A stretch of DNA of 22,262 bases from a virus. Both the position numbers and the translations under genes were made by a program. The stretch covers positions 1-22,262 of IMG/VR virus record IMGVR_UViG_3300020122_000134. The stretch is one strand, 5' to 3'. Of the stretch, positions 8 to 12,309 are shown in pieces (within the stretch, counting starts at the first letter, position 1; the number at the start of each line of letters is the position of its first letter). The notes under the pieces were generated by a model. That model was not told the origin of the DNA. It searched no databases and was given only the letters and a program-made list of their open reading frames with translations.

Positions 8-205
8 ATGAATAGGTACAACGGTGCAGGCTGGCGCTGGGCACCTAGGACGCATGGCGCGGTGCCATTGCTCAAGGTGCAGAAGGAAACGGTGGTGCGT
101 GTCATAAGGCGAGGTGCGCATGGCGGTAAAAAATGTAGGGACGGAGATTGTGATCGGTGCAAATCAACGGGAGCGCCTGGAGCGCCTGGTCAAGCAGGCG
201 CTTGA
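8..205 (+). CDS. Possible small protein at the window edge, 65 aa
   Basis: An ATG at 8 overlaps a TGA at 9-11 in another frame, the same ATGA coupling used throughout this phage, so an upstream gene may end here and this one begin. The first 37 residues precede the next gene and look protein-like (ending in KETVVRVIRR). The rest overlaps the next gene out of frame and is Gly/Ala/Pro-rich, like a shadow translation. The ribosome-binding site cannot be judged at the window edge. It may be non-coding leader instead. Confidence 0.25.
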   Translation: MNRYNGAGWRWAPRTHGAVPLLKVQKETVVRVIRRGAHGGKKCRDGDCDRCKSTGAPGAPGQAGA

Positions 206-695
206 GTGGCAAGGAACTGTTTCAGGTTTGTCGAAACAGTTAGACGATGCTCAAAAGGAACTGGCAAAGGTACTCGATGACCAGCTTCCGGAAGTCATGG
301 CGGAACTGGGGCTGGAAGAGTTCAAGATGCAGGATGGCACCAAGGTCAAGTTGGTCGAGCGGTTCACGGCCAGTGTGTCGAAGCGCAATGAAGTTGCAGC
401 TGCTGCGATCTTCAAGCGCCTCAAGGCCGGTGACCTAGTGCAGTATGCAATGACCATGACGTTCGGTGCGTCCGGGGACAATCGCAAGACAATCCAAGAA
501 ATCAAAGCCTGGTCTGTCAAGGCCAAGGTGCCGTTGGACACAAAGACCGTGGTCAATACTGCCACGCTCAAGGCATGGGTGCGCGACATGAAAGCTCAGG
601 GCAAATTGCAGCCTGACGATTTGGACGCGCTAGGCGTGCACGTGCACAATACCGTGGACGTGAAGCAACCAAAGGAGGTGCGTGATGGCGAATAG
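120..695 (+). CDS. Conserved phage protein with N-terminal coiled coil, 191 aa
   Basis: The start is ATG 120 because GAGG at 111-114 lies five bases upstream; a GTG at 114 is less well placed. Residues about 15-60 are charged and heptad-like (coiled coil), followed by a segment around EELGLEEF-type residues and DGTKVKL, then a mixed alpha/beta region ending in VHVHNTVDVK. This architecture (coiled coil, 'GLEEF..DG.KV' segment, conserved C-terminal valines) recurs in phage replication neighbourhoods, but I know of no established function. It overlaps the next gene by 11 bases and is probably translated with it. A structural role around single-stranded DNA is possible from context only. Confidence 0.85.
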   Translation: MAVKNVGTEIVIGANQRERLERLVKQALEWQGTVSGLSKQLDDAQKELAKVLDDQLPEVMAELGLEEFKMQDGTKVKLVERFTASVSKRNEVAAAAIFKRLKAGDLVQYAMTMTFGASGDNRKTIQEIKAWSVKAKVPLDTKTVVNTATLKAWVRDMKAQGKLQPDDLDALGVHVHNTVDVKQPKEVRDGE

Positions 696-1497
696 TAAAG
701 CGCTGGTTAAGCGCCAGCAGGCAGGAGCATTGGTGCAAGGTGCATCGTACGAAAGTCTCATGGGGCCAAAAGCGGCGGGAGCGGAGAATGTGACCGCTGG
801 GGATTTGTCCATCCCCCGTCTGTACATGCTCCAGCCGCTCAGCCCGCAGGTGTCCGGTTCCGGTAAGCTCAAGGGCGCTGCACCGGGCATGATCTTCGAT
901 TCGGTGACCCAGAAGTTCTACGAAAAGATCTGGTTCATCGTGTGTCTGTACCGTCGCTCTTGGGTGGAATGGGTGGAGCGCGATGCAGGCGGCGGTTTCG
1001 TGGCGGAGCACTTCGAAGTAAACCCAAAATGGAAGCGTGAGGAGCGTGGTCCATTTGTCATCAGCAAGAAGGAGTCGGCCGACGGCAAGCCACACATTAT
1101 CAACGACACGCGGAGCTTCTTCAGTCTGTACAGCCCGAAGCTGGATAAAGCGGACCTGCCGGATAACCCCACGACGGCGATCCAGAGTTTGACCAGCACG
1201 CAGATCCGACGGGCCAGCAACCTGCTGACCGTGATCACCGGCAAGGAGTTCCGCAGCAAGTCCGGCAAGGTGGGTCGGCTGCCGATCTTTGCCTCGGTGA
1301 TCATGGCCGAGGGTGAAGAGAGCGAGAATGACCAGGGCACATGGTATTCCTGGAAGTTCACGGACACGGAAACGTTGGTGCCGGATGGATCGGAATTGCT
1401 GGAGCGTGCCGTGGCGTTCTACAAATTGGCGGCGGAGTTCAAGGTGACCGTCCCTCCGCCGCAGCAGGACGTAGTTGGCGATGAGGGGGGCATGTAG
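685..1497 (+). CDS. Conserved phage protein, possible ssDNA-binding or replication accessory, 270 aa
   Basis: A full Shine-Dalgarno sequence (GGAGGTG, 674-680) precedes ATG 685; the GTG at 682 is a less likely start. The N-terminal part carries a segment of the type 'GDLSIPRLYMLQPLSPQV' (residues about 39-56), typical of a widespread family in phage replication blocks. It is followed by a beta-rich core with many aromatic residues (W-W-V-E-W, YSWKF) and a Pro/Gln-rich acidic tail ending in GDEGGM. Aromatic-rich beta cores and acidic tails are features of phage ssDNA-binding proteins, but no motif proves that here. It sits just ahead of the primase gene, which starts three bases after its stop. 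Confidence 0.82.
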   Translation: MANSKALVKRQQAGALVQGASYESLMGPKAAGAENVTAGDLSIPRLYMLQPLSPQVSGSGKLKGAAPGMIFDSVTQKFYEKIWFIVCLYRRSWVEWVERDAGGGFVAEHFEVNPKWKREERGPFVISKKESADGKPHIINDTRSFFSLYSPKLDKADLPDNPTTAIQSLTSTQIRRASNLLTVITGKEFRSKSGKVGRLPIFASVIMAEGEESENDQGTWYSWKFTDTETLVPDGSELLERAVAFYKLAAEFKVTVPPPQQDVVGDEGGM

Positions 1498-1500
1498 CCA

Positions 1501-3048
1501 ATGCCCAAAAGGTTGCTCAAGCTGTTTGCGGGCAACCCCGACGTGCACGGGGTCTATCTGCCGCCAAAGCAGAAGACCCCGGACGCTAGGGGCAAGCTCA
1601 AGGGTCGCCAATGGGCGGAAAGCGCGCCAGTGACCCTAGAGCTTTGGCAGAAGCATGTGAAGGGCGAGCAGGGTCTGGGCGTCTACATGCTCAGGCGGGA
1701 CGGTACAGTGCGCTTTGCCGCGATTGACATGGACGTATACCCCACGCAGCACAAACTCATTGCACGCCGCATCACAGATGAGAAGTTGCCGTTGGTGCTG
1801 TGCAAGAGCAAATCGGGCGGAGCGCACCTATATCTATTCGGGAAGGAGGATCTACCAGCAAGTCTGGTGCGGCGTCGGCTGGAAGCCTGGGCAGCGCGCC
1901 TCAACCTGTACGAGTTTGTCAAACGGAAGGAAGACAAGATCGAGGTGTTCCCCAAGCAGGATTCGCTCTCAGGCGATTCTGATGTGGGGAACTACCTCAA
2001 CATGCCGTATTTTGGGGACGAACGGCAGGCGCTGAATGACGACGGCAAGGTATTGACGCTCGATCAGTTCATCACCAAGGCCAACGCGACAGCCACGACT
2101 GTCGAGGCACTTGAGAAGCTGGGACTGGATGAAGGTGAGGCGCTGAAGGATGGTCCACCTTGCCTGCAAGCCCTGGTGGCCGCTGGCCCGATCAACGCTT
2201 ATCGGGATAATTCCCTGCTGGCTCTGGGCGTGTATCTCAAGGTACGGGACGCGGACAATTGGGAAACGCGGTTGGAGGAATATCATCGGCAGTTCATCGG
2301 TACGCCACTAACCGCCAAGGAGGTGCTGAAGGTCCAGCGGAGCGTGGCGAAGAAGGACTACAATTACGCTTGTAAGCAAGCACCACTCAGCACGCGCTGC
2401 AATCGTCCGGTCTGTATTACGCGAACGTATGGCGTGCGCGCCGTGGCCGAGGCACACGGGCAGGACACCGGATTCAATCTCAACCTGGGCCAGTTGCGCA
2501 AGTTCGACATGGACGGTGCGCCATTGTACGAACTGGAGGTGGATGGCAAATGGATGCGCATGTCCACGGAGACGTTACTGAACTACACGGCATTCCGCAA
2601 GGCTGTATTCGAGCAATTGAATCGTATGCCCGTGCGCCTGAAAGCGGAGACATGGGACGCAATCTTGGAGGATAAGCTACAGACCATGGTGATCGAAGTC
2701 GCCCCGCCGGACGTGGGGAATGCTGGCCTGGTGCGGCACCATCTGGAACAGTTTGTGCGGTACCTACCAGCCACACGGAAGGAGGACTTGTTGCAGGGGA
2801 TGGCGTACTCGCTGCCGGATCAGCAACGAGTATGGTTCCGTTCACCACACTTCGAGGAGTACCTGAAGAAACACCGGGTCATGTATACGTCACGCGATCT
2901 GACCACGGCTTTCCGCCGCTGGGGCTTCAAGCACGGGCAGATCAACATCAAGGGTGTCTGTATCCAATATTGGGAGATGCCCCAGTTCGACCGGCAGAAC
3001 GAACCGAACGACGTGCCCCGTATCCCCCAGGAAAAGGAGACTATGTGA
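1501..3048 (+). CDS. Archaeo-eukaryotic-type primase (AEP superfamily, TOTE-like), 515 aa
   Basis: This is a predicted DNA primase or primase-polymerase that makes primers for phage replication. Residues 72-80 read FAAIDMDVY, giving metal-binding D76 and D78. SGGAHLYLF follows at 105-113 (the S-x-H motif, H109), then EVFPKQ near 148-153 and GNYLNMPYFG at 163-172, the usual AEP series as in TOTE-system primases. A C-terminal part (from about 210) includes a cysteine cluster (C291, C300, C305) with the pattern C..xPL..xCNRxxC, seen in related phage and plasmid primases and possibly binding zinc or an Fe-S cluster. No helicase motor is fused; the separate SF1 helicase downstream may supply it. 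The ATG at 1501 follows the previous stop closely, and its last ATG codon overlaps the next gene's start. Confidence 0.85.
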   Translation: MPKRLLKLFAGNPDVHGVYLPPKQKTPDARGKLKGRQWAESAPVTLELWQKHVKGEQGLGVYMLRRDGTVRFAAIDMDVYPTQHKLIARRITDEKLPLVLCKSKSGGAHLYLFGKEDLPASLVRRRLEAWAARLNLYEFVKRKEDKIEVFPKQDSLSGDSDVGNYLNMPYFGDERQALNDDGKVLTLDQFITKANATATTVEALEKLGLDEGEALKDGPPCLQALVAAGPINAYRDNSLLALGVYLKVRDADNWETRLEEYHRQFIGTPLTAKEVLKVQRSVAKKDYNYACKQAPLSTRCNRPVCITRTYGVRAVAEAHGQDTGFNLNLGQLRKFDMDGAPLYELEVDGKWMRMSTETLLNYTAFRKAVFEQLNRMPVRLKAETWDAILEDKLQTMVIEVAPPDVGNAGLVRHHLEQFVRYLPATRKEDLLQGMAYSLPDQQRVWFRSPHFEEYLKKHRVMYTSRDLTTAFRRWGFKHGQINIKGVCIQYWEMPQFDRQNEPNDVPRIPQEKETM

Positions 3049-3809
3049 TTGGTCTACGCCCATTTTTCACATATTTTGGTGGTAAATGGCGGGTTGCTTT
3101 GAGATATCCTGCACCAGAATACAGCATGATTATAGAACCATTTGCGGGTGCGGCAGGGTACTCACTACGTCATCCAGATCGACAAATATTCTTGAATGAT
3201 CTGAACGAAGAAATCAGTAGTTTATGGGAGTATTTGATCCACGTGACTGAGCGGGAAATTCGTAGTCTACCGGTCGTGTTTGAGACAACGCGTAATCTTA
3301 GATGTTGTCAAGAAGCAAAAATACTGATTGGATTTTGGCTCAACAAAGGTTCTTCCACAGGAAGACATTTTGTACCGTCTGCGTGGATGCGCGCAGGGGC
3401 ACATCAAGATAGTTTCTGGGGAGCAGCCATTCGGGAGAGAATTGCCAGTCAGATTCAATACATTCGACATTGGAAAATATCTAACAGACCATTCGAGCGG
3501 ATCGGCAATCGAAAAGCAACTTGGTTTATTGATCCGCCGTATCATAGGACAAAAGGATATAAATACCAGTCCATCGATTACGCACTTTTGGCGGAGTATG
3601 CAAAAAATCGTCGTGGACAAGTGATTTGTTGCGAGCAAGATGGAGCGGACTGGTTGCCATTTAAACCTTTTATCACGCTGAAAGGTTTAGAAGGACGATA
3701 TGGTGGCAAACAATCAAAAGAATGGATATGGACCAATGAAAATAGAAATCGTATTCGGGCCACCGGGCACGGGGAAGACGACGCACTGTACACAGACCGT
3801 GGCCAATGA
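3045..3809 (+). CDS. dam: Dam-like N6-adenine DNA methyltransferase (D12 class), 254 aa
   Basis: It transfers a methyl group from S-adenosylmethionine to adenine in DNA. FTYFGGK (residues 8-14) and EPFAGAAGYS (31-40) form the cofactor site, NDLN (51-54) is the following acidic motif, and DPPY (163-166) is the catalytic motif. KEWIWTNE (225-232) matches the usual C-terminal end of the family. The GTG start at 3045 has AAGGAG six bases upstream and overlaps the primase stop. Residues 233-254 run on inside the helicase gene in another frame, and the whole gene is clearly more AT-rich than both neighbours, which suggests insertion by transfer. The target site cannot be read from sequence; GATC is only a guess. 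It may protect phage DNA from restriction. Confidence 0.88.
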   Translation: MIGLRPFFTYFGGKWRVALRYPAPEYSMIIEPFAGAAGYSLRHPDRQIFLNDLNEEISSLWEYLIHVTEREIRSLPVVFETTRNLRCCQEAKILIGFWLNKGSSTGRHFVPSAWMRAGAHQDSFWGAAIRERIASQIQYIRHWKISNRPFERIGNRKATWFIDPPYHRTKGYKYQSIDYALLAEYAKNRRGQVICCEQDGADWLPFKPFITLKGLEGRYGGKQSKEWIWTNENRNRIRATGHGEDDALYTDRGQ

Positions 3810-6812: not shown

Positions 6813-6856
6813 CATACGCCCCTGCACTTTAGCGAGTGCAGGGGCGTATGTGTTTT
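6813..6856 (+). terminator. Strong rho-independent terminator or attenuator
   Basis: A perfect 16-bp stem (6813-6828 with 6835-6850, starting CATACGCCCC) has a 6-base loop TTAGCG and is followed by TGTTTT. It lies between the gene ending at 6788 and the modification operon starting at 6868. Only eleven bases separate it from that start, leaving no room for a promoter after it. Either readthrough or a promoter upstream of the hairpin must feed the operon. Confidence 0.85.
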
Positions 6857-6867
6857 AGGGAGAGATC

Positions 6868-7713
6868 ATGAAGAGCGCACCGCTATTCGACTGGATGCAG
6901 AAGCGCCACTGGATCTATGTGCAGCGCTTCGAGAAGAATCTCCCCCCACCGTGGACCACGGACAAAATCCTGCAGCAGTACAAGTTCACCAATGTGTTCC
7001 GCCAACTGGACCGTGTTACGATTGAGCTCAACAAGTTTCTACCAGCCGATCATCCAGAATATCTATTCAACCTGATCTGGATGCGTTGGTTCAATTGGCC
7101 GGAGACGTGGAAATTGATCGGACTGATCAACAACTGGCCAAAGGAGAAACGAAGTTTCATCCGAATGTGCAAAGGCTGGCAGAACGGCGGATATCAGTTG
7201 TTCACAGGTGCATACATCGTCACCAATGGCGGCCGCAGTTGCCCCAAGCTGGACTACTATGTGGAAATGATGGACGTGCTGTGGAAAGATCGAGATCTGT
7301 TGTCCGAGTACATCAAGACCATGGGCACGCTTGAGGAAACGTGGAATATCCTGAAAAGCCAACCCGGCCTTGGGCCGTTCACTGCGTACGAAGTGGTCAC
7401 TGACCTGCGTTGGACGTGGTTGAAGAATGCACCCGACATCATGACGTGGGCGAATCCGGGGCCAGGTGCCAGACGAGGCTTGAATCGTCTGGCAGGTAGA
7501 GATCTAAAAGCCACTGTGCTGCGTGAACAGCAGATTCGAGAGATAAAGAAGCTGTTGGATATTGCAGGCGTCGTTAGGTGGCCGTCGTGGTTTCCAACGT
7601 ATGATCTGGAAATGCGGGAGATCGAGCACAGCCTGTGCGAGTTTGACAAATATGAGCGGGTGCGTTTGGGTCAGGGTCGTCCACGTTCACGTTACAACGG
7701 AGGTGCGCAATGA
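6868..7713 (+). CDS. HMUDK_hel-family protein (5-hmdU DNA kinase helical domain / aGPT-PPlase clade), 281 aa
   Basis: This belongs to the all-helical HhH-glycosylase-like family found in 5-hydroxymethyl-dU DNA kinases and in proteins named alpha-glutamyl/putrescinyl thymine pyrophosphorylase. Family landmarks are PPPWT (26-30), DKILQQYKFTNVFRQLDR (32-49), FTGAY (112-116), PGLGPFTAYEVVTDLR (166-181) and TWANPGPGARRGL (193-205). The domain fills the protein; there is no fused P-loop kinase. By family it acts on 5-hydroxymethyluracil in DNA, either binding the base or replacing a leaving group on it. ATG 6868 follows GGGAGAG, and the end overlaps the glycosyltransferase start (ATGA). Family membership is confident; the exact reaction is not. 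Confidence 0.85.
   Translation: MKSAPLFDWMQKRHWIYVQRFEKNLPPPWTTDKILQQYKFTNVFRQLDRVTIELNKFLPADHPEYLFNLIWMRWFNWPETWKLIGLINNWPKEKRSFIRMCKGWQNGGYQLFTGAYIVTNGGRSCPKLDYYVEMMDVLWKDRDLLSEYIKTMGTLEETWNILKSQPGLGPFTAYEVVTDLRWTWLKNAPDIMTWANPGPGARRGLNRLAGRDLKATVLREQQIREIKKLLDIAGVVRWPSWFPTYDLEMREIEHSLCEFDKYERVRLGQGRPRSRYNGGAQ
7467..7494. repeat. 10-bp inverted repeat inside the HMUDK_hel gene
   Basis: TGCCAGACGA (7467-7476) and TCGTCTGGCA (7485-7494) are perfect complements around an 8-base loop. The arms encode the conserved GPGARRGLNRLAG region, so the stem is compatible with strong protein conservation, but the perfect match is notable. Confidence 0.65.
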
Positions 7714-8480
7714 AAGGCAAGGAGAATTGGCAGATCTTCATTCCCACACGGGGACGCGTTCATGACCAGGAGACCTGGAAGTGGATCCCCGCGAACATGT
7801 TTAATCGGACGTATGCTCTTCTACATAAGGAGGAAGAGAAAGCGTGGAAGGACAGATATCCTGACCGGCAGTATCTTGTCCATCCAAAATCGGACATCGG
7901 TGGTATCAGGCAATGGTTGATGGAGCAAGGAAATACACCCCACCTCGTATTGGACGATGACCTCAAGTTCTATCGACGCAAGGCAATTGGGGATTGGCAC
8001 TTGCGTTACTGTGCATCATCCGACATGAGAGATCTATTTACCATGTTGTGGAAACAGCCACAAGCACTGGTGGGCGTGGCCGCACGTCAAGGACATAATC
8101 GTGAGCCGGAGAATTTCCGTCTGATTGGCCGCCAGATGCAATTACATGGCTACGATCCGCGCGTATGGCAAGATCTAGGAATCAAGTGCGATCGGGTCAA
8201 GTTGATGGAGGACTTCGACATCATCCTTCAGCTGCTGCGCGCGGGGAAACAGAACTACATCGCATATGAATGGGCCATTGGTCAACGCGCATCGAACATG
8301 CCTGGTGGATGCTCATTGTATCGCACCAATGAGGCACAGACTGCGGCCGCACAGAAATTGGCCAAGCTCCATCCTGGATTCGTCAAGGTTGTTGAGAAGG
8401 AGAACAAAAATTGGAAAGGTTTTGAGAAGCGCACCGATGTCATCGTGTACTGGAAGAAAGCCTACGAGAGTTCACTATGA
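7710..8480 (+). CDS. TET-associated-type glycosyltransferase (TAGT, GT-A fold), 256 aa
   Basis: A predicted sugar transferase acting on hydroxymethylated pyrimidines in DNA. IFIPTRGR (9-16) opens the fold, HPKSDIGGIRQWL follows (58-70), LVLDDDLKFYRR (79-90) carries the DxD-like metal/nucleotide-sugar motif, and a second acidic motif MEDFDIILQLLRAG lies at 166-179. A GGCSLYRT segment (199-206) and a C-terminal hPGFVKVV...WKKA region complete the pattern of phage members of this family. The full Shine-Dalgarno GGAGGTG (7699-7705) precedes ATG 7710. It overlaps both neighbours by four bases, which ties it to the helical-domain protein and the synthase homologue. The sugar donor cannot be told from sequence. 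Confidence 0.8.
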   Translation: MKGKENWQIFIPTRGRVHDQETWKWIPANMFNRTYALLHKEEEKAWKDRYPDRQYLVHPKSDIGGIRQWLMEQGNTPHLVLDDDLKFYRRKAIGDWHLRYCASSDMRDLFTMLWKQPQALVGVAARQGHNREPENFRLIGRQMQLHGYDPRVWQDLGIKCDRVKLMEDFDIILQLLRAGKQNYIAYEWAIGQRASNMPGGCSLYRTNEAQTAAAQKLAKLHPGFVKVVEKENKNWKGFEKRTDVIVYWKKAYESSL

Positions 8481-9424
8481 TCACGATCCGAGCAAGGAAC
8501 GTGAACGAAGCGTTGGGCAAGTGCCTGCGGATGCTAGATGAACCGATGCTGACCCGCAACATTGCCCCGCGCGGGTTGCGCACGCTGGAGTTTGTCGAGC
8601 CGGTGTGCACCACGTACCGCTACCCCTGGCAGCGGGTGCTGCTGCATGAGAAGCGGGACGCCAATCCGTTCTTTCATTTGGCGGAGGCGCTATGGATCTT
8701 GGCCGGGCGCAATGACGTTGCCCCACTGGCTCAGTTCAACAGTAACATCCGTCAGTATTCGGACGATGGGCTAACGTTTCACGGTGCTTACGGGCACAGG
8801 CTGCGCGCGGACATGGACCAGGTGGCGTGGGCCATCCGTCGATTGAAGACAGACCCAGATACGCGGCAGGTAGTGTTGCAGATCTGGGATGCGCGGCGGG
8901 ACATGCAGGAGGGTACACGAGACATGCCTTGCAACACGCAGGTGTACCTGAAGATTCGTGATGGACGGCTTAACATCTTGGTCACGTGCCGCTCGAACGA
9001 TGCGCTGTGGGGCGCATACGGGGCGAATGCTGTCCAGTTCAGCGTGCTGCAGGAATACATTGCGGCGCATGTGGGTTGTGCCATCGGCGAGTACCGCCAG
9101 GTCTCGGACAGTCTGCATGTGTACCTAGACCAAGGACCGTATCAGGTGATTAAGGACGACGTTGTTGAGGACCCATATTACAGTCAGGATCATAGCAAGC
9201 TGGACAGATATACACTGCTAGTCCAAGACCCGCAACGCTTCGACCGGGATCTCAAGCACGTGTTCGATGATCCGTTGCCCGTGTTCGAGGAACGATTCCT
9301 AGAGCATGTGTATAAGCCGATGGTGAAGTGTTGGAGGACGAGGACTATTGAAGACGCGTCTTCAATACTAGCCCCTGATTGGCGACTTGCCGTGCAGCAA
9401 TGGCTCAAGCGGAGGCAGAAATGA
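8477..9424 (+). CDS. Thymidylate synthase-family protein, probable dUMP hydroxymethylase, 315 aa
   Basis: A folate-dependent pyrimidine C5 methylase/hydroxymethylase. Catalytic Cys is C152 in DMPCNTQ; the phosphate-binding Arg and substrate loop follow in CRSNDALWGAYGANAVQF (171-188); H214/Y216 (SLHVY) match the conserved His-x-Tyr. The 'RSND.LWGAYGANAVQFS.LQEY' version differs from cellular ThyA (LG.PFNIASYALL) and is the form seen in phage hydroxymethylase-like members. N184 aligns with the Asn that selects uracil, whereas dCMP hydroxymethylases carry Asp there, so dUMP is the expected substrate. Because of its neighbours I predict 5-hydroxymethyl-dUMP as product, but plain dTMP synthesis cannot be excluded. 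It is about 50 residues longer than E. coli ThyA. The start overlaps the previous stop. Confidence 0.85.
   Translation: MITIRARNVNEALGKCLRMLDEPMLTRNIAPRGLRTLEFVEPVCTTYRYPWQRVLLHEKRDANPFFHLAEALWILAGRNDVAPLAQFNSNIRQYSDDGLTFHGAYGHRLRADMDQVAWAIRRLKTDPDTRQVVLQIWDARRDMQEGTRDMPCNTQVYLKIRDGRLNILVTCRSNDALWGAYGANAVQFSVLQEYIAAHVGCAIGEYRQVSDSLHVYLDQGPYQVIKDDVVEDPYYSQDHSKLDRYTLLVQDPQRFDRDLKHVFDDPLPVFEERFLEHVYKPMVKCWRTRTIEDASSILAPDWRLAVQQWLKRRQK
9346..9367. repeat. Perfect 22-bp palindrome near the 3' end of the synthase gene
   Basis: An uninterrupted dyad (left arm TATTGAAGACG, right arm CGTCTTCAATA) lies in coding sequence 54 bases upstream of the HD-domain gene's start. It has no loop and no T run, so it resembles an operator-type binding site more than a terminator. 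Confidence 0.8.
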
Positions 9425-9975
9425 GTGTACTGGAACATATCCAACTGACACGACGTGGCGGAGCGGTCAAGCGCTTCCATACGGTGCCGTTCATTGGTGA
9501 ACAGACCGTGGCTGCGCACACGTTCGGCGTACTGAATATTGTCATGCGGTTGGCAGATAGCTGGTCACCAGACTTGGTGCGTGCAGTGCTCTGGCATGAT
9601 TTGTCAGAATGCGAACTGGGGGACATACCAGCGCAGGCTAAATGGAAACACGGCAATTTGCATGCAGCTCTAGAGGCAAACTTCAATTACCACCACCAGT
9701 TGCTTACGAACCCGCTCACAGCCATCGAAAGCAAGCTGATCAAGTTCGCTGATCGGATGGAACTACTGCTTACGGCCATTGAGCAAGCGCGGTTGGGCAA
9801 TCAAGGTGCAGAAGTGATCATTGACCGGGTGTGCGAGCACCTTGGCCCGAAGATCATGGCGCAACCCAAGCATTGGAACCGGTTCTTCTTCGATGTACTG
9901 GAGGACTACGGCTGGCTTGAACTGAACGACTCTTTCCTGGAGGAGCATGGTATCGAAATCGGCGATGCAACGTGA
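9421..9975 (+). CDS. HD-domain 5'-deoxynucleotidase, YfbR-like, 184 aa
   Basis: A metal-dependent phosphohydrolase that is expected to remove phosphate from deoxynucleoside 5'-monophosphates. The HD set is H33 (AAHTFGV), H59-D60 (WHDLSECELGDIP) and D111 (KFADRMELL); R18 sits where YfbR has its substrate-contacting Arg. Length fits YfbR (about 200 aa). ATG 9421 has GGAGG at 9411-9415 and overlaps the synthase stop (ATGA); an upstream in-frame ATG at 9379 lies inside the synthase gene and is less likely. Next to a hydroxymethylase it could deplete dTMP or other competing nucleotides, as known dNMP-degrading enzymes do in phages with modified DNA. Its substrate choice is inference. Confidence 0.85.
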   Translation: MSVLEHIQLTRRGGAVKRFHTVPFIGEQTVAAHTFGVLNIVMRLADSWSPDLVRAVLWHDLSECELGDIPAQAKWKHGNLHAALEANFNYHHQLLTNPLTAIESKLIKFADRMELLLTAIEQARLGNQGAEVIIDRVCEHLGPKIMAQPKHWNRFFFDVLEDYGWLELNDSFLEEHGIEIGDAT

Positions 9976-10345
9976 TCTGTTCAGCGATCTGTTTGAAAAA
10001 CGGATCGCTGAACTGGCTAATCAGGACGTGCAGGCTTTGATGACTGCACGTTTGGCATACGGTGAAAGCTGGAACAGCCGGGGAGGATCAGGTGCGTTTC
10101 ATGTGTTCGCCCGTAAATGGGACCGAATCGAGAACCAGGCCAAGATGGCCGGGTATGATATATTCCAGGCAATGGAAAAGTTCCCCGGTAAGGACGGGTT
10201 ACTCGATGACGTGCGGGACTTGCGTCGCTACCTACTTCTGGTAGAAGAATATTGGTTCCGCGAGTGTCCCACTGGCGGCAAGCATGCAGTCAACCTGGAG
10301 ACGGTCACATGCGGAAAGTGCAAGCAGCTAGTTCCAGCACCATAA
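9965..10345 (+). CDS. Protein resembling nucleotide-modification-associated domain 1, with C-terminal Cys pair, 126 aa
   Basis: The pattern YGESW (32-36), GAFHVFARKWDRIEN (43-57), DDVRDLRRYLLLVEEY (81-96) resembles the small helical 'nucleotide modification associated' domain (formerly DUF1599), which occurs beside base-modification genes in phages. After it comes a short tail with C101, C116 and C119 (TCGKCKQL), possibly a zinc knuckle. I prefer the ATG at 9965 (MQRDLFSDLF), although neither it nor ATG 9947 has a well-spaced ribosome-binding site; translation may be coupled to the HD gene it overlaps. Biochemical role is unknown. The domain assignment is by pattern memory and moderate. Confidence 0.75.
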   Translation: MQRDLFSDLFEKRIAELANQDVQALMTARLAYGESWNSRGGSGAFHVFARKWDRIENQAKMAGYDIFQAMEKFPGKDGLLDDVRDLRRYLLLVEEYWFRECPTGGKHAVNLETVTCGKCKQLVPAP

Positions 10346-12309
10346 CCAACGCCAGTGAGTTGCCTAATCTCAAGGGCGTACGGGCACTGGGCACGGACTG
10401 TGAAACGCGTGACCCTGGGTTGATGGCGCTTGGGCCGGGGGACATCCGCAGGGAAGGTGAAGTGCTGGGCGTTGCCTTGTCCACCGGAGATAAGTCCTGG
10501 TACGTGCCGCTCAACGGTAAACTGTCTAGGGACAAAGCGGTGAAGTGGCTGCGGGACGTGCACGCGCAGAAGGAGACCACGTTCTACGGTGCCAACCTGA
10601 TGTACGACATGGGGTGGTATCAGAGCACAGGCTTCCCGATCCTTGGCCCGGTGCGCGACGTGCTGCATGCCGGGCGCTTGTGTGACCTGTGGGGTAAGTA
10701 TCCGTCGCTGGATGAACTGTTGGTGAAATACCTAGGTGGCGGTAAGACAGGTGACAAGCTCTGGGCATGGCTGGCTGCGCATCGGGGCGGGGAGCCTACG
10801 CGCAAAGCGCAGATCAACTATTTGAACCTTGCGCCAGTTGAGTTGGTGGGCGAATATGCCTGCGGGGATGTGGCTGAATTAGTGCGGCTGGAAGACAAGA
10901 TCAAGGTGGAACTTGAGCGGCGGTCGATGTGGAGATGGTATCTAGTAGAGGAGCGACTTCTTCCTCTACTGCATGCTATGCGCATGCGTGGGGTGCGCTA
11001 CGACGTGGACGGTGCGCACAAGCTGGGCGAGCGGTGGGCCAAGGAGCATGCAGTAGATTTGAAGACGTTTGGAGCCTTGGTCTATGGAGCTAAGGCGTGG
11101 GGCCGGATGGGGCCGGAGGAACGTGCTTTGGCTGTTGATACAGGCAGTAGTGCCAAGTTGGCTGAGGTGTATGCCTCGCGCGGCGTCGTCGTTCCCCGCA
11201 CAGATAAGACCGGTGCACCAAGCATCACCAAAGTGTGGCTGAAGGACCAGGGGGACGAGTTCTCGCTGCTACTTCAGCGTATACGCAGCCGCGAGAAACT
11301 ACGCGGAGCACATCTGGACGGTACACTACAGCATGTTGTTGCAGGACGTATCCATCCCACGCTCAAGCAATTGTGGCCACGCACGCTCAGGCTGTCGTCG
11401 GAGAATCCTTCGGAACAGAACGTGCCCAAGCGGGATGAGATACTAGCTCCGCAGATTCGTGGACTATGGTTGCCGGACAAAGGTGAAGAGTGGGGACGCT
11501 ATGACGATGCGCAGCAAGAATATCGTTACATGGTCAACTGCGCCGTAGGACCAGGTGCGGAAGAGGCACGCGGACAGTACGCGGCAGACCCCGGGATGGA
11601 CTTTCATCAGTACGTGGCGGACATGTTCGGCGTGCCACGGGACACGCGCATCAAGAACACAAATTTCTCCAAGGTGTACCGCGCTGGCAAAGCCAAGTTC
11701 TCTGCGACACTCGGTGTGGACCGTGAGGAAGGAGATAAATGGTACGCGGACTACGATGAAAAGCTGCCGTTCGTGGCGGCCACGGCGCGCAAGGCGGAAG
11801 AGCTAGCTAAGAAACGTGGCTATGTGCAGCTGATGCTGGAGGATGCGCGGATCCATTTCGACCGGTACGGCATCGATGACTGGGACTTGAAGAATTTGCA
11901 GGGAAAGACGGCAGCACAGGCCAAGGCATTGGAAGTCAGCTATCCGACAAAGAAAGAAGCCGAGCGCGTATGCAAGGAATTGTTTGGCGAGCAGGTGCCC
12001 AAGAAACATTATCGCGTGGGGCTGTACGGTGTGTATACAGCGATCAATAGCGTCATCCAGCCCAGCTGCGCGCAGCGCATGAAGAAGGCACTCCTGGATT
12101 TGCAGGATGCCGGAATCTACGACGTGCTGGGTGTGCCGCTGGTATCCGTGCATGATGAGTGGGGGTTCAGCGTACCGAAGACGAAAGCTGGGCGCGAAGC
12201 GTTCAGAGAAGTGAAACAGATCCTGGAGAAAGATCCCACTGTGCTGCGCGTACCATTCCGCGTGGGTGCGGAGATCGGCCCAGATTGGGGACATTTAAAG
12301 GAGCTATAA
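10309..12309 (+). CDS. polA: DNA polymerase I family (family A) with 3'-5' exonuclease, 666 aa
   Basis: The replicative phage DNA polymerase. The exonuclease motifs are DCE (D30, E32), N96/D100 in GANLMYD, and Y183/D187 in YACGD. Polymerase motif A is RYDDAQQEYR (about 398-407), motif B is RIKNTNFSKVY (447-457) with the O-helix Lys 449, Phe 453 and Tyr 457, and motif C is SVHDEW with D616 and E617. Phe 453 aligns with E. coli Phe762. No 5' nuclease domain is present. About 60 residues between motifs B and C (around RYGIDDWDLKNLQGKT) are less standard. ATG 10309 has GGAG at 10297-10300, and the gene lies inside the end of the previous one. It would have to accept a modified triphosphate if the pathway upstream works as predicted. 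Confidence 0.93.
   Translation: MRKVQAASSSTITNASELPNLKGVRALGTDCETRDPGLMALGPGDIRREGEVLGVALSTGDKSWYVPLNGKLSRDKAVKWLRDVHAQKETTFYGANLMYDMGWYQSTGFPILGPVRDVLHAGRLCDLWGKYPSLDELLVKYLGGGKTGDKLWAWLAAHRGGEPTRKAQINYLNLAPVELVGEYACGDVAELVRLEDKIKVELERRSMWRWYLVEERLLPLLHAMRMRGVRYDVDGAHKLGERWAKEHAVDLKTFGALVYGAKAWGRMGPEERALAVDTGSSAKLAEVYASRGVVVPRTDKTGAPSITKVWLKDQGDEFSLLLQRIRSREKLRGAHLDGTLQHVVAGRIHPTLKQLWPRTLRLSSENPSEQNVPKRDEILAPQIRGLWLPDKGEEWGRYDDAQQEYRYMVNCAVGPGAEEARGQYAADPGMDFHQYVADMFGVPRDTRIKNTNFSKVYRAGKAKFSATLGVDREEGDKWYADYDEKLPFVAATARKAEELAKKRGYVQLMLEDARIHFDRYGIDDWDLKNLQGKTAAQAKALEVSYPTKKEAERVCKELFGEQVPKKHYRVGLYGVYTAINSVIQPSCAQRMKKALLDLQDAGIYDVLGVPLVSVHDEWGFSVPKTKAGREAFREVKQILEKDPTVLRVPFRVGAEIGPDWGHLKEL
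10944..10970. repeat. 9-bp inverted repeat inside the polymerase gene
   Basis: AGTAGAGGA (10944-10952) pairs with TCCTCTACT (10962-10970) across a 9-base loop. It lies in coding sequence at the junction of exonuclease and polymerase domains. No function is evident. Confidence 0.55.

Follow-up and report, generated by a model that had tools for sequence, protein, structure and literature searches.

Pseudomonas phage M6 carries a thymidine hypermodification cluster for 5-NedU (NC_007809) in which a P-loop kinase (gp054, PF18748) is followed, with a few small genes between, by the helical protein HMUDK_hel (gp055, hereafter hel), Nmad5 (gp056), a thymidylate synthase (TS) homologue that is the hydroxymethylase (gp058), an HD-domain protein (gp059), DUF3310 and polA. 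We analysed a linear viral record of 22,262 bp (IMGVR_UViG_3300020122_000134, hereafter the window; a fragment, with positions given for the whole of it) that contains a module in the order hel, TAGT glycosyltransferase, TS, HD-domain protein, an unnamed conserved gene and polA. The hel, hydroxymethylase, HD and polA genes are ordered as in M6. Only M6 has a kinase gene immediately before hel, an Nmad5 gene separating hel from TS and, upstream, a gene for an amino acid:DNA transferase (ADDT), whereas the window has a TAGT gene between hel and TS. Measured against the kinase-dependent type represented by M6, ViI and SP10, the window possesses the hydroxymethylase (as judged from its sequence) and the HMUDK helical domain and lacks both kinase and ADDT. 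An initial annotation of this DNA had seen the glycosyltransferase in the place of the kinase and had treated the stand-alone helical domain as unusual. Neither point held, as TAGT occupies the Nmad5 position of M6, and the hel gene of M6 is likewise separate and adjoins a separate kinase gene; Sonora also has a separate hel gene, and this feature was rejected as a novelty. The unusual feature of the module is that the kinase is missing while TAGT is present. We propose, with a probability of roughly 0.6, that the operon yields phage DNA in which a thymine derivative is glycosylated without any phosphorylation step, hel presenting 5-hydroxymethyluracil (5hmU) and TAGT glycosylating it.

The module consists of five consecutive overlapping genes on the + strand, followed by polA, as annotated initially (Table 1). 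The first four gene assignments were also confirmed. The product of gene 1 matched PF18723 (171 bits, cut-off 25) and phrog_2396 (E 8e-62) and is 43% identical to M6 gp055, in agreement with its placement in the HMUDK_hel/aGPT-PPlase clade. Gene 2, annotated as a TAGT-type glycosyltransferase, matched PF20691 (E 1.8e-15) and phrog_842 'beta-glucosyl-HMC-alpha-glucosyltransferase' (E 7e-45). Its product has an acidic motif, D82-D83-D84, and this DDD together with D168, G199-G200, R205 and W248 was invariant across 44-47 sequences. A Foldseek search with its AlphaFold2 model (pLDDT 94.4) returned TarP, ppGalNAc-T and further GT-A folds, and the protein is accordingly modelled as a GT-A fold with a metal-binding acidic motif. 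Alignments for the structure models were built without rows from phage records. Sequence profile searches of the PDB with hel and TAGT gave no matches, and Tet_JBP, the dioxygenase family whose association gave TAGT its name, had no match in nine records, a scan in which no positive control rang. The HD-domain protein, annotated as YfbR-like, is a probable dNMP/dNTP phosphohydrolase, and the ATG of its gene overlaps the hydroxymethylase stop.

Table 1. Features of the module and of the adjoining part of the window.
Feature	Position	Strand	Remarks
Relative of phage Pam3 gp33	114-695		upstream of primase
Relative of phage Pam3 gp34	682-1497		upstream of primase
AEP-TOTE family primase	1501-3048		
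Dam-type (D12) adenine methyltransferase	2832-3809		between primase and UvrD helicase; real start probably downstream of listed ATG
Intrinsic-terminator-like hairpin	6813-6850	+	17 pairs, 10 G-C, loop 4, TGTTTT tail
HMUDK_hel (PF18723, formerly aGPT-Pplase1), 281 aa	6868-7713	+	E 4.5e-50
TAGT glycosyltransferase (PF20691), 256 aa, predicted GT-A fold	7710-8480	+	57.8 bits, curated cut-off 27.5
Predicted dUMP hydroxymethylase, thymidylate synthase superfamily	8477-9424	+	catalytic Cys, N184
HD-domain YfbR-like 5'-deoxynucleotidase	9421-9975	+	HD_3 and YfbR-like matches, both above cut-off
Conserved protein without named family, 132 aa	9947-10345	+	alternative start ATG 9965
Family A DNA polymerase (polA)	10309-12309	+	ATG 10309; adjoins module, as in M6

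Gene 3 scored 71.8 bits against Thymidylat_synt (cut-off 24.3), matched phrog_5131 (E 3.5e-97) and shares about 40% identity with M6 gp058 and with annotated deoxyuridylate hydroxymethyltransferase proteins. Among solved structures it is closest to the MilA CMP 5-hydroxymethylases, and the best PDB match is one of these. In the alignment with MilA the catalytic Cys is kept and N184, described in the initial annotation as uracil-selecting, stands opposite the MilA Asp. All TS relatives near hel that were readable at both columns, in every partner class, had Asn together with the catalytic Cys. This Asn points to dUMP as the substrate, and hence to 5hmU rather than 5-hydroxymethylcytosine (5hmC), and argues for a dUMP hydroxymethylase. 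If the TS were instead a dCMP hydroxymethylase, TAGT would glycosylate 5hmC as in T-even phages; the match of TAGT to the T-even-type family phrog_842, the CMP 5-hydroxymethylase at the head of the PDB matches and the announcement of the Brevibacterium phage LuckyBarnes (NC_047851), which names a 'dCMP-hydroxymethylase and two glycosyltransferases' (PMC6588365), all speak for that. We regard it as quite improbable, however, and disfavoured a dCMP hydroxymethylase for the window, because the LuckyBarnes TS itself has Asn at the N184 position (SGIN), as do all readable relatives, and because gene 3 resembles the TS of M6 and is paired with hel, a protein of the 5-hydroxymethyldeoxyuridine (5-hmdU) pathway.

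Gene 5 contains the motif YG-SW-RGG-GAF-RKWDR, and its relatives are 46-57% identical with W42, R45, G46 and G47 invariant. The family was detected in many hel loci and is common in them near polA. No Pfam or PHROG match was obtained for the window gene, and its NCBIfam match was at chance level. The matches of 21 relatives likewise included no convincing Pfam family and no Nmad family, so that the earlier naming of this gene as Nmad1-like was rejected; by sequence it is a member of a conserved, unnamed family.

Neither of the P-loop kinase families PF18748 and PF18751 was present in the window, which bears out the initial annotation within these 22 kb, and the scans for PF18757 (Nmad5) and PF18724 (ADDT) were also negative, the ADDT positive controls M6 and Sonora having rung. 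Since the neighbouring kinase of Microbacterium phage Golden belongs to PF18751, this family was searched besides PF18748, and a Walker A scan independent of family was added. Two Walker-A-like strings occurred in open reading frames (ORFs) of the window, one in the UvrD helicase (the sole plausible one) and one in the D12 methyltransferase frame. Because the window is a fragment, absence of a kinase from the whole genome of this phage is not directly demonstrable and was judged from related sequences, for which IMG/VR was scanned with the TAGT and hel profiles and GTDB genomes with the hel profile. None of the best 80 TAGT contigs had a kinase within the locus; 66 of them extended 2.5 kb or more upstream, and 64 of these 66 carried hel and TS. 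Over the whole records of the TAGT contigs measuring 30 kb or more, PF18748 or PF18751 was found in 0 of 34 and PF18723 in 34 of 34. Two complete genomes with hel and TAGT, those of the cultured phage LuckyBarnes (50,774 bp) and of contig G052 (62,781 bp, with a 123-bp direct terminal repeat), were free of a kinase and of ADDT. In the Walker A scan, 43/50 kinase-only clusters had a P-loop ORF of 130-290 aa no more than 3 kb from hel, compared to 0/60 TAGT-only, 0/16 methyltransferase and 0/13 TylF clusters. The absence of a kinase alongside TAGT is therefore real. In public records, kinases of the 5-hmdU type (M6 gp054; Golden gp55, L369:5684-6286) are annotated as 'terminase small subunit'.

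These results bear on the possibility that a kinase lies outside the fragment, the phage following the ordinary M6/ViI pathway and TAGT acting on the hypermodified base or serving another purpose. The incompleteness of the record favours this, modification genes are dispersed in some phages, ViI being a case, and a kinase of an unrecognised family could sit elsewhere in the genome. We nonetheless consider it unlikely given the 34 long contigs and the two complete genomes without either kinase family, the lack of ADDT in the window and in both complete genomes, and the confinement of ADDT, radical S-adenosylmethionine (SAM) and pyridoxal phosphate (PLP) gene families to kinase loci. A second suggestion of the initial annotation, that the sugar is added after a different activation step, found no support: kinase-sized P-loop ORFs are absent from the 3 kb around hel in TAGT-only clusters, and the absence of ADDT, radical-SAM and PLP families near TAGT also counts against it.

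The hel proteins were clustered at 95% identity into 182 clusters, and a gene within 6 kb was scored as a partner. In these query-biased samples of related viruses TAGT was near hel in 62/182 clusters and a kinase in 51/182, with both in 0/182 (Fisher P = 7e-12, counting clusters with no correction for relatedness). Other partners were a class I SAM methyltransferase (16 clusters), GT-B glycosyltransferases (about 20) and, on bacterial chromosomes, a TylF-type O-methyltransferase (13 clusters). Two partner classes occurred together in four of the 182 clusters and 21 had none. Among the GT-B partners one subfamily matched Glycos_transf_1, and the smaller GTB30 had no Pfam match and was called from sequence only. 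The median distance to hel was 0-4 bp for kinase, TAGT, methyltransferase, TylF and GTB30 and about 630 bp for GTB16. Restricted to kinase loci were ADDT (18 clusters), radical SAM (18), PLP (11) and flavin adenine dinucleotide (FAD) genes (8). Of these, ADDT was assigned by Pfam, whereas radical SAM, PLP and FAD genes were recognised by eye or from their annotation.

Partners have been exchanged on a constant backbone. The same primase-UvrD-hel-TS-polA arrangement carried TAGT (L022, L055), a methyltransferase (L262, L304) or GTB30 (L271) in the vicinity of hel. On a tree built from 180 hel proteins there were 27 partner changes against a minimum of 4, and a mixture-model tree of 81 hel rows gave 14 against a minimum of 3. 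Long branches, that of the window included, leave the precise number of changes uncertain; the well-supported branches nevertheless force more than one exchange. Were the TAGT-hel neighbourhood simply shared phage history, TAGT could have a target other than phage DNA, and both MW202897, which carries TAGT-TS-HD and lacks hel, and a TAGT relative in a different setting in DLP_6 are compatible with this. We judge it very unlikely, as hel and TS accompany TAGT in nearly all contigs with enough upstream sequence, the combination recurs in the unrelated LuckyBarnes in another gene order, and partners change while the backbone stays.

Several partner loci had further features. The class I SAM methyltransferase stood beside hel at L262:5114-5977, at L304:5144-5980 and in 14 further clusters on the same phage backbone, which suggests O-methylation of 5hmU. 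GT-B-type partners were located at L211:4743-6008 (Glycos_transf_1), L271:6795-7919 and L133:8855-9940, the latter two representing the subfamily with no Pfam match. A small nucleotidyltransferase-like gene (L007:13268-13696 and eight more TAGT clusters), judged TagD-like by eye and possibly hinting at a phage-made sugar donor, was confined to TAGT loci (9/9), as was a dUTPase-like family recognised by eye (11/11). Bacterial loci (L327-L368, among them L335, L337 and L348) combined hel and TylF with Nmad2, MazG_C, SLOG (LD_cluster2) and sometimes TS. These chromosomal loci are likely a DNA-modification or defence system of the bacteria; a TS and a 5hmdU kinase domain have recently been validated in defence systems (PMC13092281).

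The partners of hel would donate phosphate, a sugar and probably methyl to the same hydroxymethyl group, from which we infer that the role of hel is recognition and presentation of 5hmU. In its general form this makes HMUDK_hel an adaptor for 5hmU-containing DNA rather than a kinase accessory, with partner swaps giving a family of thymine derivatives in phages and some bacteria, a generalisation to which we give an even chance. Its proposed partners are the P-loop kinase (M6, ViI, SP10), TAGT, GT-B glycosyltransferase and class I or TylF methyltransferase, and its products would include glycosyl-5hmU and possibly 5-methoxymethyluracil. For the M6 kinase, a sequence preference for TG/TC is reported (PMC6449724). 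Alternatively, hel may itself be catalytic, for example in activation or base exchange on 5hmU before the partner acts. Its original name, alpha-glutamyl/putrescinyl thymine pyrophosphorylase clade 1, points that way, as do its invariant polar residues (R13, R45, D48, D179, C257, E258, K261 and R264) and the weak matches of its predicted fold to amino acid:DNA transferases. Phosphate, sugar and probable methyl transferases have no activated intermediate in common, however, and it is hard to see what pyrophosphorylation would do in loci that lack a kinase, which makes a catalytic hel rather doubtful. The AlphaFold2 model of hel (pLDDT 94.8) also matched, by Foldseek, the phiRSL1 and PhiW-14 helical proteins as well as the fused SP10 5-hmdU DNA kinase.

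In the kinase-free pathway that we favour, the TS homologue would convert dUMP to 5-hydroxymethyl-dUMP, as N184 and homology suggest, and the HD phosphohydrolase may clear competing thymidine nucleotides, probably suppressing dTTP by analogy with PhiW-14, in whose infection dTTP is suppressed by a dTTPase (PMC5977210). The phage polymerase would then copy 5-hmdUTP into DNA, as in M6 and PhiW-14. In the new DNA hel would recognise 5hmU, probably in a complex with its partner, and probably flip out and present the base, and the adjacent TAGT would place a sugar on the hydroxymethyl oxygen, most simply glucose from host UDP-glucose. The product would be glycosyl-5hmU, similar to base J. The initial annotation's prediction of glycosylated 5hmU made without a kinase received good support from the genome comparisons (0/182 clusters with kinase plus TAGT, two complete relatives without kinase). 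The sequences show which genes are present, that they adjoin, that kinase and TAGT exclude each other and that partners are exchanged, and the enzymatic steps, the hel-partner complex and base flipping are inferred from them.

Several observations weigh against this pathway. The hel model had no significant fold match in the PDB, so that a DNA-glycosylase fold is a mere hint. The non-significant list contained RecR (28 columns, 0.6 Å, E 8.8), RuvA and Endonuclease III-3, and the resemblance to Endonuclease III was weak (TM 0.35-0.39). These matches are compatible with, and no proof of, a helix-hairpin-helix (HhH)-type DNA-binding element (GLGPF, residues 167-171), and base flipping is weakly suggested by the HhH-like RecR stretch and the Endonuclease III likeness. 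No hel-TAGT fusion was found among the loci when looked for, and in many TAGT loci the two genes are separated by further ones. The complete circular phage MW202897 (L003) has TAGT-TS-HD-DUF3310 at 19995-22685 with no match to PF18723 or a kinase; TAGT may thus not always need hel. The query bias of the samples tells in the same direction.

Outside the module, the window encodes an AEP-TOTE-type primase, a Dam-like methyltransferase, a UvrD helicase and terminases. The hairpin directly upstream of hel was by far the longest of five terminator-scan matches, the other four having 5-6 pairs and the total equalling the shuffled mean, and is likely the 5' boundary of the module.

Glucosylated 5hmdU in phages was stated to be unreported in 2019 (PMC6449724). 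The initial annotation had expected a new variant; the kinase-free combination with TAGT stands and is not confined to this phage, the kinase-free hel and TAGT module being a widespread class whose co-location was noted in Pelagiphages (PMC9599517). Apparently new within the literature searched, with priority unsettled, are the exclusivity of kinase and TAGT, the complete genomes without a kinase, a TS of the uracil type and the exchange of partners more widely. If the proposed pathway is correct, many environmental viruses carry a base-J-like modification that arises at the nucleotide level, and Pfam's name for the helical domain misleads. The neighbour of hel would then predict whether an unseen virus has phosphate-derived, sugar or methyl chemistry on its DNA bases. 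Glycosylation would also protect 5hmU against SMUG1 and similar glycosylases, which attack the free form. The pathway would bear on evasion of restriction and DNA glycosylases and on sequencing losses of modified viral DNA, and could supply DNA glycosyl- and methyltransferases that act on 5hmU. As a cultured phage (host B. iodinum ATCC 15728), LuckyBarnes makes the proposal testable.

LuckyBarnes resembles the window in combining hel, TAGT and a uracil-type TS without a kinase, and differs in its TS-TAGT-TAGT-hel order, its two TAGT genes and a hel about 29% identical. In Pelagiphages, the part of the 2022 description that concerns these genes lists TS, aG/PT-PPlase1, a deoxynucleotidase and a 'beta-glucosyl-HMC-alpha-glucosyltransferase' near the DNA polymerase, as in the window; its authors proposed M6-type hypermodification, perhaps with broadened function, and the relevant passages mention neither the missing kinase nor exclusivity nor other partners (PMC9599517). 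The T-even phages share with the window the TAGT family (T6-type beta-glucosyl-HMC-alpha-glucosyltransferase) and DNA glycosylation (PMC13390438). They make 5hmC, and their TAGT is believed to attach a second glucose, whereas the window has hel and a uracil-type TS with N184 in place of the Asp of the T-even dCMP-type hydroxymethylase. The product predicted for the window, an O-glycosylated 5hmU, is that of the kinetoplastid base J system of JBP dioxygenase and JGT (PMC6449724); in base J thymine is oxidised within DNA, whereas in the window 5hmU would arise at the nucleotide level.

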